Assembly: GCF_000165425.1 (NCBI RefSeq)
Contig: NW_001798972.1
Location: 125,368 to 189,367, forward strand
Reading direction: 5' to 3'
DNA length: 64,000 nucleotides
Source: Paramecium tetraurelia
Taxonomy: Eukaryota > Ciliophora > Oligohymenophorea > Peniculida > Parameciidae
Below, in pieces: positions 1,550-9,715 of the stretch. The notes below the pieces were generated by a model that saw only the letters and a list, made by a program, of their open reading frames with translations, searched no databases and was not told the origin of the DNA. A program made the position numbers and the translations under genes. Numbering within the stretch: position 1 is the stretch's first letter; every line of letters starts with the position of its first letter.

Positions 1550-2123
1550 TCATAAGAAGTTCACAGATTTGTCAATTACTTGGTTAAGTTCTTGACTCTT
1601 TTAATAATTGTGATTCCACTATTGGATAAGGTTTTCAACGTGGATGTTGCAATTATCAAAAATAGAATTGCTATGATTCTATTGAATGATCTAAGATATA
1701 TGATCAGATGTGTAGGCCAGTAGTACGTCCTTGAATGTTACACCTTTGACCTCATTGGTTATGAGATCAATTGTGACAAGTCCATTCTTGTTGAACCATT
1801 TAGGATAATCTACAATTTTTTATAATAATTACGTTTCATCTACTCAGCTATTTGAGAAACCTATGCCATAAAACTGAAAGAATCTTAAAAAGACTGAAAC
1901 TAGTATTTACGAACTAAACTACTGACATTCTAACTATATTTATAAGGTTTACAAGAGTCCAATTCGAGTTCAACTCATGAATGCTAAGAATTTGGTTAAC
2001 TTCATCAGCATTCAATTTTGTGAACTTCTTAGTGGGTACATCCGAAAAATCCTTCAACAAATACTTCAAACCAAGCAGGTTAGCTGTAGTTCTTGTATTG
2101 TTAGAAGTGAAATTCCTATACAT
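1550..2123 (-). CDS. PCD/DCoH-like protein, copy 1
   Basis: A 175-residue protein of the pterin-4a-carbinolamine dehydratase family, which recycles the tetrahydropterin cofactor of aromatic amino acid hydroxylases. Three exons are joined by two 23-nt GT-AG introns (1900-1922 and 1810-1832), and the sum is exactly 176 codons. Visible features are the N-terminal helix with NWTL (about residues 50-55), the F-x-S-F strand, SFMAQVSQIAEQMKHYPKWF at about 72-91, and a C-terminal extension of about 45 residues beyond the usual 100-110. In the family the core reads HHP followed later by THD; here it reads HYP and TNE, so two of the three catalytic histidines are replaced. Fold assignment is firm; activity is doubtful. 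A paralogue lies at 4649-5022. Confidence 0.8.
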
Positions 2124-2505
2124 AGATATTAATAATGCTAAAACGATTTTCTTTAATTGGATTTAAATTAACTTAAAGTATGCAATTAATTGAATAATTT
2201 GTCATCATATTATACCTTAAGTTAATAAAATAAAATATTTTGATTTTATTAGATCTTCTAACCAAGTTGATAAATTGAATAATTCTGAATTTTTAAAATA
2301 AAAAAATATTAATAGCAATTTATCCTTTTAGATCAATAAAATACGTCACCTGTGCTTTTCACCTCTAATTTCGAAGAGGATAAATAATAACCATTTATTT
2401 CAAAAAAAAGATTACACAAATTTGGAATTGTTCTAATAATAAAAATAATTATTATAAATTTAATTATTATCATATATATTTTTATATATTTTATAAATAT
2501 CGAAA
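2124..2505. other. Intergenic between PCD copy 1 and the LRRC45-like gene
   Basis: AT-rich spacer upstream of PCD copy 1 and downstream of the LRRC45-like gene, both read leftward. The PCD reading frame stays open upstream of 2123 but has no further ATG. I see no other gene, RNA or repeat. Confidence 0.5.
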
Positions 2506-4333
2506 TCATCCTAATTAGAGATTTAGCCTACAAGTTTCAATGACTGCATTTTATACTTTTCCTTGGACAATATGACATAGCTTTTCATATTCAGCCCTTA
2601 ATTTAATGTTATTCCCTTCTTGATTACTCATAAGTCGTTCTAATTCTAATATTCTCTAATGTTATAACTATAAGTTGGTTTTGTGTAAAGCGTATTGTCT
2701 TTCTTATAATATTCTTCTTTATTAAATATCATCCATTCCTCTATCTAAAATAGTATATCAATTACCTTTCTAAATGTTTAAGATGAAAAATGTTTCGTCT
2801 ATTTTCCTGATTAAATTATCAATATGATGATCTAAAACAATATTATTGTTTATTAGTTTCTCTTATTTAATGCTTCTTTTGCTGATTTATAGATGTGTTT
2901 GATGAACCTTTTCCCTTTCTTATTATATTTATTCCTCAATTAATTATCTATCTCTGGTCAAATTTGTTTCTAATCTTTACATATCATCCTGGATAGATTG
3001 GCTTTCATTTTCAGCTCTCTTTTTTATTGATTAAGAAATACTTTCAAAGTCTATTAGGATTCCATCTCCCTTTTTTTTAGCAATTCGATTTAATGATTAT
3101 ATTTGGCTTTTTCTTCAATTAGAAGCCTACCTTCAACAGCCTTGACATTCTCATCATGATCCAATCTCATTTTTAAGAAGAACTCTTTCATCCTTAACAA
3201 TTATTAGTTGTATTAATCATTAGCTTTCATTAATGAATTGAATTTGCTCTAAATGCCATCCAATCTAGGTTACCAATTTGCAGTAATCTAATCAATTTAT
3301 AACTAAATAAGTTTAATTTAATATAAACCTTATTGTCATGTCTGATTTGGGATAACTCATGCATATATTCATTTTCTAATGCTAATACATGCTTATTTTT
3401 GGCGACATATTCATTCATCACTTCTTATTATCTGTAATCGCTAGCCTTGCCTAGTTCATCAAATTAGCGTTTAACTTAAGTATATTCTGCCTCAATGATA
3501 GATTTCCTTGTAACTTCCTCTTCAAAGTGCCTTTTAGCCATACTGACAGCTTGTTCTTTAGATAGTATCTCTTATCTTAAGGCATTCATCCTATTAGAGA
3601 GTTCTTCATTCATTAATCTGTTTTATCGCAATTCTTAATCAATTTATTCTTTCAATTAAGCAACTCTAATTGCATCATTTTTTTTGACTGCTCTTTCAGG
3701 TGGGTTTGTTGTGGCAGCAGTTTTTGGTATAGTTTTAACAGGCTAATATGTAATTCTCTATGATTCTTTGATTCCTGTTGAGTTTTTGGCCATCAAATCA
3801 GTTGATCTATTCTATTCAATCCTTTCTCTGATTTATGTTGCTAATCCTTCTGGTATCTTATTGCAAGAGACGTCTAAAAATTTTAAATTTCTATTGCCAT
3901 TTAGTCCTTCTAACAAATATTGAGCTCCTTTTTCTCCAATTTCATTCCATTTTAAATTCAACGATTATAATGATGTATTCTGCTTTAACATTTAACATAT
4001 TCTAGCACAATGATCAGCTTGGATTCTATTGTTTTTTAGGTCAACTAATTGTAATTGATATGAGGGATTCATTAATAAATCGCACAATGCACTAACACCT
4101 CCACCTATGGCATTCCATTCAGCAATCAATGTTCTTGCATCAGGACTTATCGAACGACAAATGCGTTCAAATCCTCTTCCATTTATATTACATCCTCTGA
4201 GTTCAATGTTTATAAATTGAGTATTTTGGGCTAAAAATTAGGCCACAACCACACAGCCTTCTTCATTTAGTATTTAATCAGATAATATTAGATTTGGAGC
4301 CTTCTGTGCTTCTAAAGCTTTCTAGAGCTTCAT
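2506..4333 (-). CDS. LRRC45: LRRC45-like leucine-rich repeat and coiled-coil protein
   Basis: A 585-residue protein. Residues about 1-200 form ribonuclease-inhibitor-type leucine-rich repeats (for example LQLVDLKNNRI, LQSLNLKWNEIGEKGA, LKFLDVSCNKIP). The rest, from about residue 230, is a long charged coiled coil. Order, length and repeat wording match LRRC45, which in animals sits at centrioles and ciliary basal bodies and helps link centrosomes and start ciliogenesis; a basal-body role here is inference. Three introns give an exact codon sum. The first (3303-3328, 26 nt) starts GTT rather than GTA, the second (23 nt) ends AAG, and the third (21 nt) is GTA...TAG. The start is the first in-frame ATG before the repeats. 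Confidence 0.8.
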
Positions 4334-4648
4334 GGATTCAAATTTAAAATTAGTAGTTAATAAATGAATTATCGAGTATAAATAATATAATTACTTATAT
4401 TAGAAATCAATATCATAAATTATTATATAATTTTGTTATATCATACTATTTGTAATTATAATTTTTATCATAATATATAAAGTATCTAATAAGAAAACTA
4501 AATATCAATTTGTGATAATTAAACAATATATTCCTTTAAAAGTTCAAAATAGAATTTCTTCGGTTTTAGAGAAGTTTTAGTTTCTAGTATTTAGTATCTG
4601 AGAATCCACAACCTTGGGACTGTCACAAACAAATGAATTTATTAATTA
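4334..4648. other. Intergenic between the LRRC45-like gene and PCD copy 2
   Basis: AT-rich spacer between the start of the LRRC45-like gene and the stop of PCD copy 2. Six-frame reading shows only short frames. No signal is supported. Confidence 0.5.
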
Positions 4649-5022
4649 TCATCGAGATATGAGTAATTCATCTATATTTTTGATTTCCATTGCCTATTAA
4701 TCTACTGTAAAACCCAAGAGAATGTCCTTTACTGAAATACCTGAACAGTCGTTGATAGTCATCTCCACATTGATTACATTTTCCTTTTAGATCCATTTTG
4801 GATAATCTAATAGATATTTAGAATAAATAGAATATGATGCATATCTTCAGCAACTGCTGAAATAGATTCCGTGAATGCAAATGTCTCTTTAAATGAATTA
4901 AACTTAAATTCTTTCTTAATTTTTGTTGTGTCCTTTGTTGGATGCCATTAGAGGGAGTGAATTTCAAGTGCTGATGCAATTTCTTCTGAATTCAATTTTA
5001 GTTGCTTAAATTGATGAAACAT
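4649..5022 (-). CDS. PCD/DCoH-like protein, copy 2, with AT-AG intron
   Basis: Second PCD-family gene, 114 residues if spliced, close to the normal family length. Exon 1 gives LNSEEIASALEIH, a conserved LQWHP, EFKFNSFKETFAF and AVAEDMHH. Exon 2 gives YPKW, then MTINDCSGIS and VKDILLGFT. The two parts are in different frames and join only if 29 nt (4807-4835) are removed. This falls at the same codon and phase as the second intron of copy 1, but the intron begins AT, not GT. Changing its first base A to G would restore a normal GTA start. Unspliced, translation would stop about 25 codons on. As in copy 1 the core reads HYP, and the later THD reads IND. This could be a pseudogene, a non-canonical intron or a sequence error. 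Confidence 0.7.
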
Positions 5023-5206
5023 CTTTGAAGTCTCTCACAAATATTTTTAAGGAATTGATTATAGCTAAATTTTGGTATTTATTTAAATGACGACCCTAAT
5101 TCTAGAATCGCAAAGAACCTATCAAATGTTTATTAATACGAACCATATTAATTTTAACGCAATGTTATGATAAGTTTTTATTTTTTTATAATAATCAAGG
5201 AATGCT

Positions 5207-6585
5207 TCAATTGCCCATAGGATTTGGTATCTTATTTGGATCGAAATTCATTGGATATTGTTGATTTGGCATAGTTTGGCCAGGGTAGAATGCAGGTGGT
5301 TATTATTAGCCTGGAGGTGGTACCTAATTTGGCTAAGGAGGGGGTTATTAGCCAGGAGGAACATTAGGATAAGGCTGATTGATAGGAGGTAAATTTGGAT
5401 ATTATTGGCCTAGTGGTAAAGTCTATGCTTATTGATTTGGTGGCATTTGATTATTTGGATAGCCACCCTATGCTTAATTGTTAGGATAGTTTTAAGGTTA
5501 ACCTCCTTGATAATTAGGAGGTTATTAATTATTAGGATTTGGTGCTTAATTTTGATTTGGGTACCCTTAAGGATTATTTTACATAGTTTAGGCATAATTT
5601 GGATATCCTTATTGATTAGGTTATTAGTTTGGTGGTGGATTTGGTGGATATCCTGGTGGTTGATTTGGTGGATAATTAGGTGGTTGATTTGGTGGATAGT
5701 TTGGTTGTTGATTTGGTGGATAACCAGGTGGTTAATTTGGAGGATAATTCGGTGGTTAATTTGGAGGATAACCAGGGGGTTGATTTGGAGGATAATTAGG
5801 TGGTTAATTTGGTGGATAATTTGGAGGTTGATAGGGTGGGTATCCTTATTATGGATTTGGTTAATATCCTTATTATGGATTAGGTGGGTAGTTAGGCATA
5901 TAGCCTTACTGGGGATATTTTTATTATTGATTCTATGGATATCCTTAAGTTCCTTAGTAGCCTGGTTATGAATAAGGTGGTGGTTAGGGATATTATATTT
6001 ATTATGGATAATTGGGAGGTTACTAATATGGCATTTGTTAATTGTATGGTTATTGATAATAAGGAGCTCCTGGAGGTTGCATTGGTATCACATTATTTTA
6101 TTGATAATATTATGGGTTTGAAGGGATTTAAGCTTAAGGTTAATATTTTGAATCAGCAAACCATTCAAACGCAATGTATAGCTATCCAGCTGATTTTCCC
6201 TGAGTTGTTAAATATTATTTAAATTACTTTGTAACTTAAGTTGATCCATTCAGCTGGTTTAGGAACATCTACCAAATACGGTTAAATGGCTATGGAACAT
6301 TCTCCAACTAAATCATCTTCAGTTACTTCATCAGCATCCCAAATTTGGATATCCACTAGGTACTCATTTGTACGTCTAAAGCTTAGGGATTGATTCCATG
6401 AAGGATGCTTTCCTGTTTATATGAATATATCTGGTACCAGCATCTGTATGTTCTCTTGTCCTTTGTCTTTAATTGCCCAGAGTGACCTTGCAATAAGGAT
6501 CCATTTTGCCAAGGAATTCAGTGTCGTGAGTTAGTTTTGCTTTGAGGGGTTTGACAATTAAGGTGCCAGAACCGACTAATGACAT
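5207..6585 (-). CDS. C2-domain protein with P/Q/N/Y-rich tail
   Basis: A 441-residue protein. Residues 1 to about 145 form one C2 domain, a calcium or phospholipid-binding membrane-targeting module: it starts GTLIVKPLKAKLTHD, has GKMDPYCKVTLG and HPSWNQSLSF, then DIQIWDADEVTEDDLVGE with the acidic loops. The remaining ~295 residues are low complexity, built from PPNYPPNQ, PPGYPPNQ and QQGYPPN units. This architecture is common in ciliates and plants. Two introns (25 nt ending CAG, 28 nt ending CAG) give an exact sum of 442 codons. A long antisense frame rich in Trp and Ile is only the shadow of the tail. A role in membrane traffic or calcium-triggered secretion is inference. Confidence 0.85.
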
Positions 6586-6607
6586 TTTAATATTTTTATA
6601 TTTGTGA

Positions 6608-8561
6608 ATGTCTAAGAAATCTAATTTGGGTAAGGCTCTACAGAGACAACAATAAAGGAAAATGAATGAAGGAGCAGCAAAAGTTCAGAATCAAGGATAG
6701 TTCTTTCATGATGGGAAGGTTGTGAAGGAGGAGTATCAAATATAATAAGAGAACTTGTAATCGATAATTGATTAGAATCCATTGAATGAATATTTGTAGA
6801 TGGCAGAGATGGCAAATATCAAATATTAAGCAGAGAAGAAATCAGATGTGGTGGTAAATGAGTAGCAGAAATAAGTAAGATAAAAGTGGATAATTTTTAG
6901 TTAGTGATAAATGTAAATGCAATAAGAAAGGGACAATTACCAAATTCATCGGTGTATGATTATTAGAAGAACCAATTGTTGGTTGACTTACAAATACCAA
7001 GAAGACCTAGATGGGATGAGAAGACTACAGTTGAGTAATTGAGGTTGATGGAGAACGAGAATTTTTTAAAGTGGAGAAAGGAATTGGCAAAGTTCGAAGA
7101 GGAACATTATTAGATCTAATTGACTCCTTATGAGAAGAATATTGAAGTTTGGAAGTAATTGTGGAGAGTGGTAGAGAAAGCAGATATTTTGGTTTAAGTG
7201 GTGGATGGAAGAGACATCCTATTCTATCATTGCAACGATCTGACTAAATACGTGCATGAGGAATAAAATAGAGTTTACAGAAAGAATCAAACAAAGATCA
7301 ATTTTCTATTGATAAACAAAAGCGATTTGATTACTGATAAAATAAGAGAGGAATGGTCTGCCTTTTTGAATTCAAAGAATTTGAATCACATGTTCTTTAG
7401 TGCCAAATTGGAATAAGAGAAAATTGATAAGGAAGAATAAGTGTAAGATGCAACTAATATCCTAATTTAATAAGAGGAACCTAAAATCGAAGAAAACTTA
7501 GAAGCATTCATTAATACACCAAGAATAGCAGACAGAAGGATATTGTTATCAGAGTTGAAATCATTGGTGTAAAAGATTAGGAAGTAAAGATAAGAGAATG
7601 TGGAACCAACTAAAGTCATTGAATAGGATGATCATGATATATAACATGATGAGAATACAGTCATTATTGGAATGGTTGGATATCCCAATGTGGGTAAGAG
7701 TTCAGTTATTAATGCAATATGTAATAAGAAATTAGTTGGAGTTGCAGCAAGACCTGGAAAAACAAAGCATTTTTAGACAATTCCATTGGAAAAATATCTA
7801 TTAGTATTTATATTTATTCTAATTTAAGCTATGTGATTGTCCAGGTTTGATCTTCCCCAATGCTTCATCCTCTAGAGCTGAAATGGTCTGTAATGGTGTG
7901 TTACCAATTGACAACATCAAAGATTATTTAAGTCCAATGGATTTGTTGGCTGAAAGAATTCCTAAAATCGTTTTTGAGAAACTGTATGGAATCAACCTAC
8001 AAGAATTCAAACTTATCGATGCTTCTACTGTGCTCTCTACTTATAGTTAGAAAAGAGGATTCATGACAGGCAGAGGATTGCCAGATGAAGCCAAAGCAGC
8101 CAAATTAATGTTAAAAGACTTCATTAATGGTAAATTACTATTTGTGAAATTGCCTCCAAGTTATCAAGGTGACGCATTGTGGTAATCCAATCCCTTAGAG
8201 GATTTAGAGAACCTAATTCAATAACAATAATAACAGCAAAATCAGTTAAATGACGATGCCAATATTGATAATCAATTCGAAAATCAGTTGATTCAAGAGA
8301 AGAAAATCACGAATGAAGAGATACTCGAGATATTCACTCAAGAGAATTTAGCTCAATTGATGGAAGGGAAGAAGGTCCATGGCATCAAATTAACAAAGGA
8401 ACAGAGGAGAGAGATAAAGCACAATTTCTAAAGAGGTATTATGTATTTTTAACAACATTTTAGGTGATCCTATTGACATAAAAAAATATCTTAATTTACA
8501 ATAAAATTAAAAGGAAACTTTATATAAAACATACATTCAAGGCAAAAGAGGACAAATATGA
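6608..8561 (+). CDS. LSG1: LSG1-type ribosome-export GTPase
   Basis: A 624-residue cytoplasmic GTPase of the YlqF/LSG1 family, which releases the export adaptor NMD3 from the pre-60S ribosome. The N-terminus MSKKSNLGKAL and the following FLKWRKEL, LTPYEKNIEVWKQLWRVVEK match LSG1. The G motifs are circularly permuted as expected: G4 LINKSD (about 7300) precedes G1 GYPNVGKSS (about 7678), and G3 LCDCPG comes last. Three introns (26, 25 and 28 nt) sum to whole codons; the second ends AAG. The reading starts 22 bp beyond the divergent C2 gene start and ends 38 bp from the convergent Rab stop. Confidence 0.92.
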
Positions 8562-8599
8562 GAAATATTGTGATTAGTAAAAACTCAATATTAATATAT

Positions 8600-9306
8600 T
8601 CAACAACACTTTTCTTTGTCCTTTTTGTTATCGTCTGCTTGTGGGCCAATTTTCTAGCCTGGAGTTTGTTGACTTCTCTAGGGTCTTTGAAATGTATTAA
8701 TAATATAGTTACCCCTAACCTTTCTGTCCTTGAGAATCCTTTTTCACAATCAGTTTCTTTGCAAGTTAAATGAAAGCTTTGGATACTTAATCGGCAGTCT
8801 TAGCACTTGCTTCCATATGCCCCATCTTTCTTATGGCTGCATAATCTAGAGCCTTTTGCGTGGTGACACTGACATAGTAATATCATAATCTTACGCTTTG
8901 TCTTCGATATCGCTCTTGTTTCCCAACAACAGTAACTCTACATTCTTCTCCGCATATGAATCTACCTCATTAATCCAAAATCTATCAATATCTTCAAACG
9001 ATGCAAGTGAGGACACATCATAGACCATCACAATCCCATCAGCACCCTTCCTTCAAATTCATCACATACCTTGTAATATGCACTGGTTATTGTTCGGAAC
9101 CTTTCCTGTCCCGCTGTGTCCCAGATTTACAACTTTACTTTCTTCCCGTCAATCTCTAAAGTCTTAAATCTGAAGTCCACTCCAATGGTAGTTAAATAGG
9201 AATCACTAAAAGTGTCATCTGAAAATCGCAATAGCAAGGACGACTTCCCCACTCCTGAGTTGCCCACAATCACCAACTTAAACAAATAGTCATACTCCTT
9301 AATCAT
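8600..9306 (-). CDS. Rab-family small GTPase (Rab1/8-like)
   Basis: A 209-residue Rab, a membrane-traffic switch. It has the P-loop GNSGVGKSS, switch [37 protein letters not shown] and MEASAK, and ends KEKCC, a double-cysteine prenylation site. [15 protein letters not shown] and [10 protein letters not shown] are closest to Rab1/Rab8 types, but a precise class needs phylogeny. Three introns (23, 26 and 28 nt) are needed to bring all motifs into one frame; the first and third end AAG. Exact sum 210 codons. Confidence 0.93.
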
Positions 9307-9715
9307 TAGATATAATAAATATTTAAATAATTACATCACAGAAGTCATCAGTATATATAATTCATTCCACATTAATTCATACAATTTTAAACTACATTAA
9401 CACTTAATCGATTAATAATAACCAAATTCCCCACTAGTTAGGATCCTAAAATTCTACATACTAGTTTATGATTATTCAATCCTTTCTGATTATTCCAATT
9501 CTATTTTTACCTATATCCTCTAAAAACTACTTTGAATTAAGAACCCTTATGTTCAAACATATCTTGTTCGACTCAGTATTCCATAAACATTATAGATCTC
9601 AGAAATTTATGCTGCTTATAATCAGAAAATTTATAATAGAATTATACACCCTCATACTGATGAATCTGCAATAGACATTGATTTGAAAAATGAAATTCAT
9701 ATTTAATTATAGCAA
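9307..9715. other. Divergent intergenic region with a doubtful small ORF
   Basis: Space between the divergent Rab and sorting-receptor genes, so probably holds both promoters. A plus-strand frame at 9468-9686, rich in Leu/Ile/Phe, is open for about 72 codons. It has no recognisable motif and may be chance. Confidence 0.4.

Follow-up and report, generated by a model that had tools for sequence, protein, structure and literature searches.

A probable relic intron with AT-AG ends in a putative duplicate pseudogene of the PCD family of Paramecium tetraurelia

Paramecium introns are tiny, with a size range of about 20-34 nt and GTA and TAG as canonical splice sites (PMC11334263, in excerpt), and ciliate introns satisfy the GT-AG rule (PMC5014332, in excerpt). 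AT-AG introns are described from the human transcriptome, where they are rare, arose from GT-AG introns and in some cases involve A-to-I editing; U12-like AT-AG cases appear in the same passages of PMC4176328. The U11/U12 snRNP is given as absent from the ciliates considered in the relevant part of PMC12862383, which connects this with their lack of AT-AC introns, and the text of PMC2846911, on U12 intron losses, does not mention Paramecium or ciliates. A literature search for the phrase 'AT-AG introns' together with splicing gave no match; none of the papers found on AT-AG, AT-AC and GC-AG splice sites was about ciliates, judged by title; and the sole match for Paramecium and pterin dehydratase concerns fish pigment genes. 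Recent and older genome duplications are described for the Paramecium aurelia complex (excerpts of PMC11334263 and PMC3091696), and the latter excerpt describes how sister copies decay gradually and cites a figure of at least 1500 for recent pseudogenes among the P. tetraurelia annotations.

The window analysed here is a stretch of 64,000 nt of the P. tetraurelia genome (contig C19) that carries a tandem pair of pterin-4a-carbinolamine dehydratase (PCD) genes, copy 1 and copy 2. Copy 2 contains a 29-nt segment with AT-AG ends at the place of a family intron. We consider it highly probable, at roughly 0.9, that copy 2 is a decayed duplicate, or pseudogene, most likely from the latest genome duplication visible, and that the segment is a relic intron that stays unspliced. 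Copy 2 resembles post-duplication Paramecium pseudogenes in having an intact collinear sister, several lesions and more amino-acid changes than that sister; we found no difference from them, the splice-donor change being one lesion of copy 2. With the tiny GTA...TAG introns of Paramecium the segment shares length, position, phase, the TAG end and homology to canonical sister introns, but it differs in its first base. The human introns described in PMC4176328 (in excerpt) likewise have AT-AG ends that go back to a GT-AG intron, but these have RNA support, whereas copy 2 has five further disruptive differences.

The 29-nt segment and the PCD family intron

On the minus strand, the segment reads ATATTCTATTTATTCTAAATATCTATTAG, opening with ATATTC and closing with TATTAG. 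The exon edges are ...GAAGATATGCATC / ATTATCCAAAATGG..., and their phase-1 join gives ...AEDMHHYPKWIQ...; without the 29 nt, copy 2 therefore reads ...MHHYPKW..., with the HHYPKW motif intact. Both the TAG acceptor and the length fall within what is seen in spliceosomal introns of Paramecium (about 20-34 nt), whereas the donor triplet is ATA (4835-4833) instead of GT(A).

The family was surveyed with the Pfam PF01329 profile across the genome to which the window belongs (69 Mb, 231 contigs), and 22 exon-level matches were obtained. Intron sites were chosen by eye from a scan for GTA...TAG, each choice restoring the HxPxW motif. At 16 of the 16 other sites placed in this way (14 genes from 12 loci, copy 1, and a copy-1-like gene on contig C81), the homologous intron is GTA...TAG, 21-29 nt long, at an identical codon and phase; copy 2 alone among the placed sites has A at the first intron position. 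The only ones of the 22 matches that are unrepresented among the intron sites are copy 2 itself and a match on C36 (L014, 25.3 bits), which was excluded from the 16 as its three-frame translations contain no recognisable homologous site. The original prediction had placed the segment at the codon and phase of the copy 1 intron and had noted an A where G is expected; the comparison bears out the first, and the second holds against every other placed site. Since copy 1 and its C81 counterpart lie outside the 22 matches, the search may have overlooked further divergent members of the family.

In all, the count for the genome is at least 17 PCD genes or remnants. Tandem PCD pairs are also found at L018 (C193:84000-87000) and L019 (C204:103000-106000), one pair per contig. 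The first intron of copy 1 is apparently 19 nt long (GTAAACCTTATAAATATAG; window 2123-1833, minus strand), slightly under the usual 20-34 nt.

The restoration of a reading frame is weak evidence by itself: the interval 4760-4900 contains 17 AT..AG pairs of 15-60 nt, that of 4807..4835 included, which join the same two frames. GT-AG and GC-AG pairs of 15-60 nt never join the frames in this interval, also when the ORF-length filter is dropped. The identity of the 29 nt as an intron rests instead on its position and on its likeness to the 29-nt intron of the sister gene (GTAATTAATTCATTCTAACTATTTAATAG), with which it is identical at 21 of 29 bases.

Internal eliminated sequences, which are germline DNA, have TA at both ends, and their shortest length class spans 29 nt. 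The segment has the right size to be one that was left in the somatic genome, but the sister gene carries a canonical intron at precisely this site, and we regard such an origin as exceedingly unlikely. A retained element of 29 nt was also rejected on its ends, as no placement bounded by TA on both sides has the ends 4807..4835; the 8 frame-joining TA-bounded segments of 20-60 nt have lengths of 20, 23, 35, 44 or 53 nt.

Table 1. Coordinates of PCD copy 2 features and of the copy 1 comparator intron (window positions)
Feature	Position	Strand	Basis or remark
Copy 1 comparator intron, GTA...TAG, same codon and phase	1810..1832	-	Sequence comparison
25-nt deletion junction 4529/4528 vs L017; normal C-terminus and stop codon gone	4522..4537	-	Alignment
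Net 2-nt insertion, then TGA 4546-4544 in old frame	4542..4561	-	Alignment
Stretch with net 30-nt insertion vs L017, L009 and L010; in-frame TGA 4651-4649	4630..4678	-	Alignment
Exon 2 remnant, to premature TGA 4651-4649	4649..4806	-	Alignment
Probable relic of conserved phase-1 PCD intron	4807..4835	-	A for G at first base, TAG kept; aligned to L017 intron
Donor first base, A for G	4835	-	G at 16/16 placed homologous sites
Exon 1 remnant of copy 2	4836..5063	-	Alignment to L017, L009 and L010
A-run with one extra A vs L017, L009 and L010; exon 1 frameshift	4993..5002	-	Alignment
Net 35-nt loss vs L017; family ATGTA start gone	5064..5088	-	Placement varies between alignments

The sister gene and the lesions of copy 2

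Searched as DNA, copy 2 matched, after itself, contigs C28 (76%), C54 (73%) and C81 (72%), and 3 further short pieces on the same contigs (73-77%). The C28 gene, L017, has a 175-aa frame without interruption, gene models being begun at the ATGTA motif. Window positions 2457-9361 are collinear with C28 123660-130615 at 82.6% identity over about 7 kb, and C28 collinear blocks, with gaps between them, span -2346 to 29180 in window coordinates. L017 is hence an intact gene inside a collinear block, as in the case of a genome-duplication pseudogene and its sister. Blocks of C54 and C81 are also collinear with the window, in opposite orientation and at 65-76%. Judged at this locus, the collinearity of C28 compared with that of C54 and C81 is as expected after two genome duplications, one recent and one older, and copy 2 and L017 look like genome-duplication sisters.

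The copy-1-like gene lies on C19 (window 1561-2123) and C81 (71575-72257) as collinear counterparts. A tblastn search for it on stretches of C28 (30 kb) and C54 (20 kb) gave only cross-matches to copy-2-type genes and hits at chance level, with E above 1. The tandem PCD pair may have been reciprocally lost after the recent duplication, with copy 1 kept by C19 and copy 2 by C28.

The lesions were read from alignments with L017 as reference, in one of them with L009 and L010 alongside. Compared with L017, copy 2 has six disruptive differences including the donor change, and net indels of 25-35 nt account for three of the six (Table 1), and its disabling lesions are absent from all three relatives. 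The exon 1 region still matches the profile (G000:C19:130177-130365, window 4810-4998; 41.2 bits, cut-off 26). An ATG further upstream, at 5146, shares the frame of exon 1 until the frameshift, and the ATG at 5022 is in the frame of the ORF only because of the 1-nt frameshift downstream of it. From 5022, the unspliced frame stops after 87 aa, in agreement with the early end that was predicted for retention of the segment, and covers PF01329 positions 2-63 with 44 bits (cut-off 26). Removal of the 29 nt joins the frames as predicted, but only locally, giving an ORF that runs from ATG 5022 to the TGA inside the insertion and covers positions 2-89 of 91 with 67.9 bits (cut-off 26; L017 scores 85.3 bits). 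The expectation of a full family-length protein was not upheld, as this ORF has 114 aa and not the 175 of L017, because of the lesions in the start region, the frame, the insertion and the end.

The A at 4835 could in principle be an assembly or sequencing error for a true G. Only a single base would have to be wrong, and the assembly holds no second copy of the locus as a check, the relatives having diverged to 72-77%. However, the segment and the sister intron disagree at 8 of 29 positions, the net indels of 25-35 nt among the other lesions are not accounted for by base-calling errors, and the gene would be broken even with G, all of which makes such an error highly unlikely.

The stretch that contains the net 30-nt insertion includes TA-bounded segments of 26, 28, 30 and 32 nt, sizes at which the shortest internal eliminated sequences are found. 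One of the left ends, TATAGATG, resembles the end consensus of these elements, and the insertion could be internal eliminated sequence DNA left in the somatic genome.

Selective constraint on copy 2

Amino-acid changes were polarised with L009 = L010 as outgroup. In the 74 residues round the intron, 12 private changes fall to copy 2 and 1 to L017, with 6 unresolved (two-sided binomial P = 0.0034). Over 435 trimmed coding columns, the branch of copy 2 has 9, 9 and 13 changes at the first, second and third codon positions and that of L017 has 5, 1 and 15, with 12 that could not be polarised. The excess lies at positions 1 and 2 (18 in copy 2 vs 6 in L017, P = 0.023), whereas third positions are similar (13 vs 15), and the two distributions differ with a Fisher P of 0.049. 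The untrimmed alignment has a more neutral look (17, 21 and 20 in copy 2; 7, 3 and 19 in L017), but it takes in badly aligned ends and the trimmed columns are therefore preferred.

In a gap-free alignment, copy 2 is changed at 2 of the 9 columns that are invariant in 15 other genes; invariant columns are undercounted near the alignment end, where two genes are off by one residue. Copy 2 has FTE for the conserved FMG, and I for a T invariant in the 15 others. The column count is not decisive alone, because copy 1, which is apparently intact, also breaks 2 of the 9 (E to K and K to Q).

The relaxed protein constraint indicated by the 12 vs 1 changes is opposed by the pairwise Ka/Ks of the core, which is 0.10 for copy 2 and L017 even with the Ka of copy 2 inflated by about five out-of-register codons. 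This is hardly above the values of the intact pairs (0.074 for L009/L010 and 0.078 for L018/L019), which means that the copy 2 core stayed under constraint over a large part of its past; the corresponding Ks values are 1.33, 0.51 and 0.24. By a hand estimate in which third positions are taken as neutral, the unconstrained share of the branch since the duplication is about 0.4 or less, a rough figure because third positions approach saturation. On this estimate, copy 2 is neither clearly just dying nor dead since the duplication. The original prediction had offered a fresh splice-site loss in an incipient pseudogene. Loss of the splice site in a pseudogene is supported by the other five lesions and by the larger number of amino-acid changes in copy 2 than in its sister; the freshness of the loss is at best weakly supported, as the low Ka/Ks favours it but the six lesions and the surplus of amino-acid changes oppose it.

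Splicing of the segment and the history of copy 2

A working non-canonical intron was another option of the original prediction. Here the U2 spliceosome would excise the 29 nt and yield a core-only PCD of 114 aa from ATG 5022 to the new TGA. The spliced ORF does cover nearly the whole domain, the TAG end and the length of the sister intron are kept, and the low Ka/Ks would fit a gene still in use. Human transcripts include rare AT-AG introns of GT-AG origin (PMC4176328, in excerpt), so that AT-AG ends are in themselves no bar to splicing. Nevertheless, start and stop would both have to be new and the splice site exceptional at the same time, in a gene that is broken elsewhere anyway and in an organism whose canonical splice sites are GTA/TAG (PMC11334263, in excerpt). 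The change of FMG to FTE, the replacement of the invariant T by I and the excess of amino-acid changes also argue against it.

The splicing machinery gives no support for a minor-spliceosome route. As positive controls, U2 and U6 were detected in the genome with 4 and 3 matches, respectively, that exceed the cut-off. No candidate for U12 RNA reached E <= 1 (42 scored out of 6227), and U6atac gave 2 matches of 19.9 and 19.2 bits, below the cut-off of 33 (46 of 3254 candidates scored). This search covered U12 and U6atac among the minor-spliceosome RNAs and is a limited control. The segment also lacks the AT-AC ends of a U12-type intron, as it ends in TAG. Given the other lesions and the lack of U12 and U6atac RNAs above threshold, a functional rare intron is very unlikely, and that copy 2 is still transcribed, with the U2 spliceosome removing the segment to give a core-only PCD with new start and stop, is hardly to be expected.

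The reading of copy 2 as a decayed duplicate implies the following history. The ancestral copy 2 would have carried the phase-1 GTA...TAG intron of the family. Once copy 2 was dispensable, the frameshift, the indels, the stop codons and the replacement of G by A at the start of the intron would have accumulated, and the spliceosome most likely no longer excises the 29 nt. Retention shifts the frame and leads to an early TGA, and any copy 2 transcript would thus be a frame-shifted target of nonsense-mediated decay, as is expected for such intron-retaining transcripts (excerpts of PMC5485702 and PMC11334263). We infer the lack of splicing and of function in copy 2, and likewise the order of its lesions.

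Copy 2 thus looks like a case of ordinary gene decay after genome duplication. It illustrates that what passes for a non-canonical intron, because its excision repairs a frame, can be an intron relic in a duplicate gene that is broken at several points, and that comparison with the genome-duplication sister resolves most of the question from genomic sequence alone. The C19 and C28 loci, in turn, may be a small example of reciprocal loss in a tandem gene pair.
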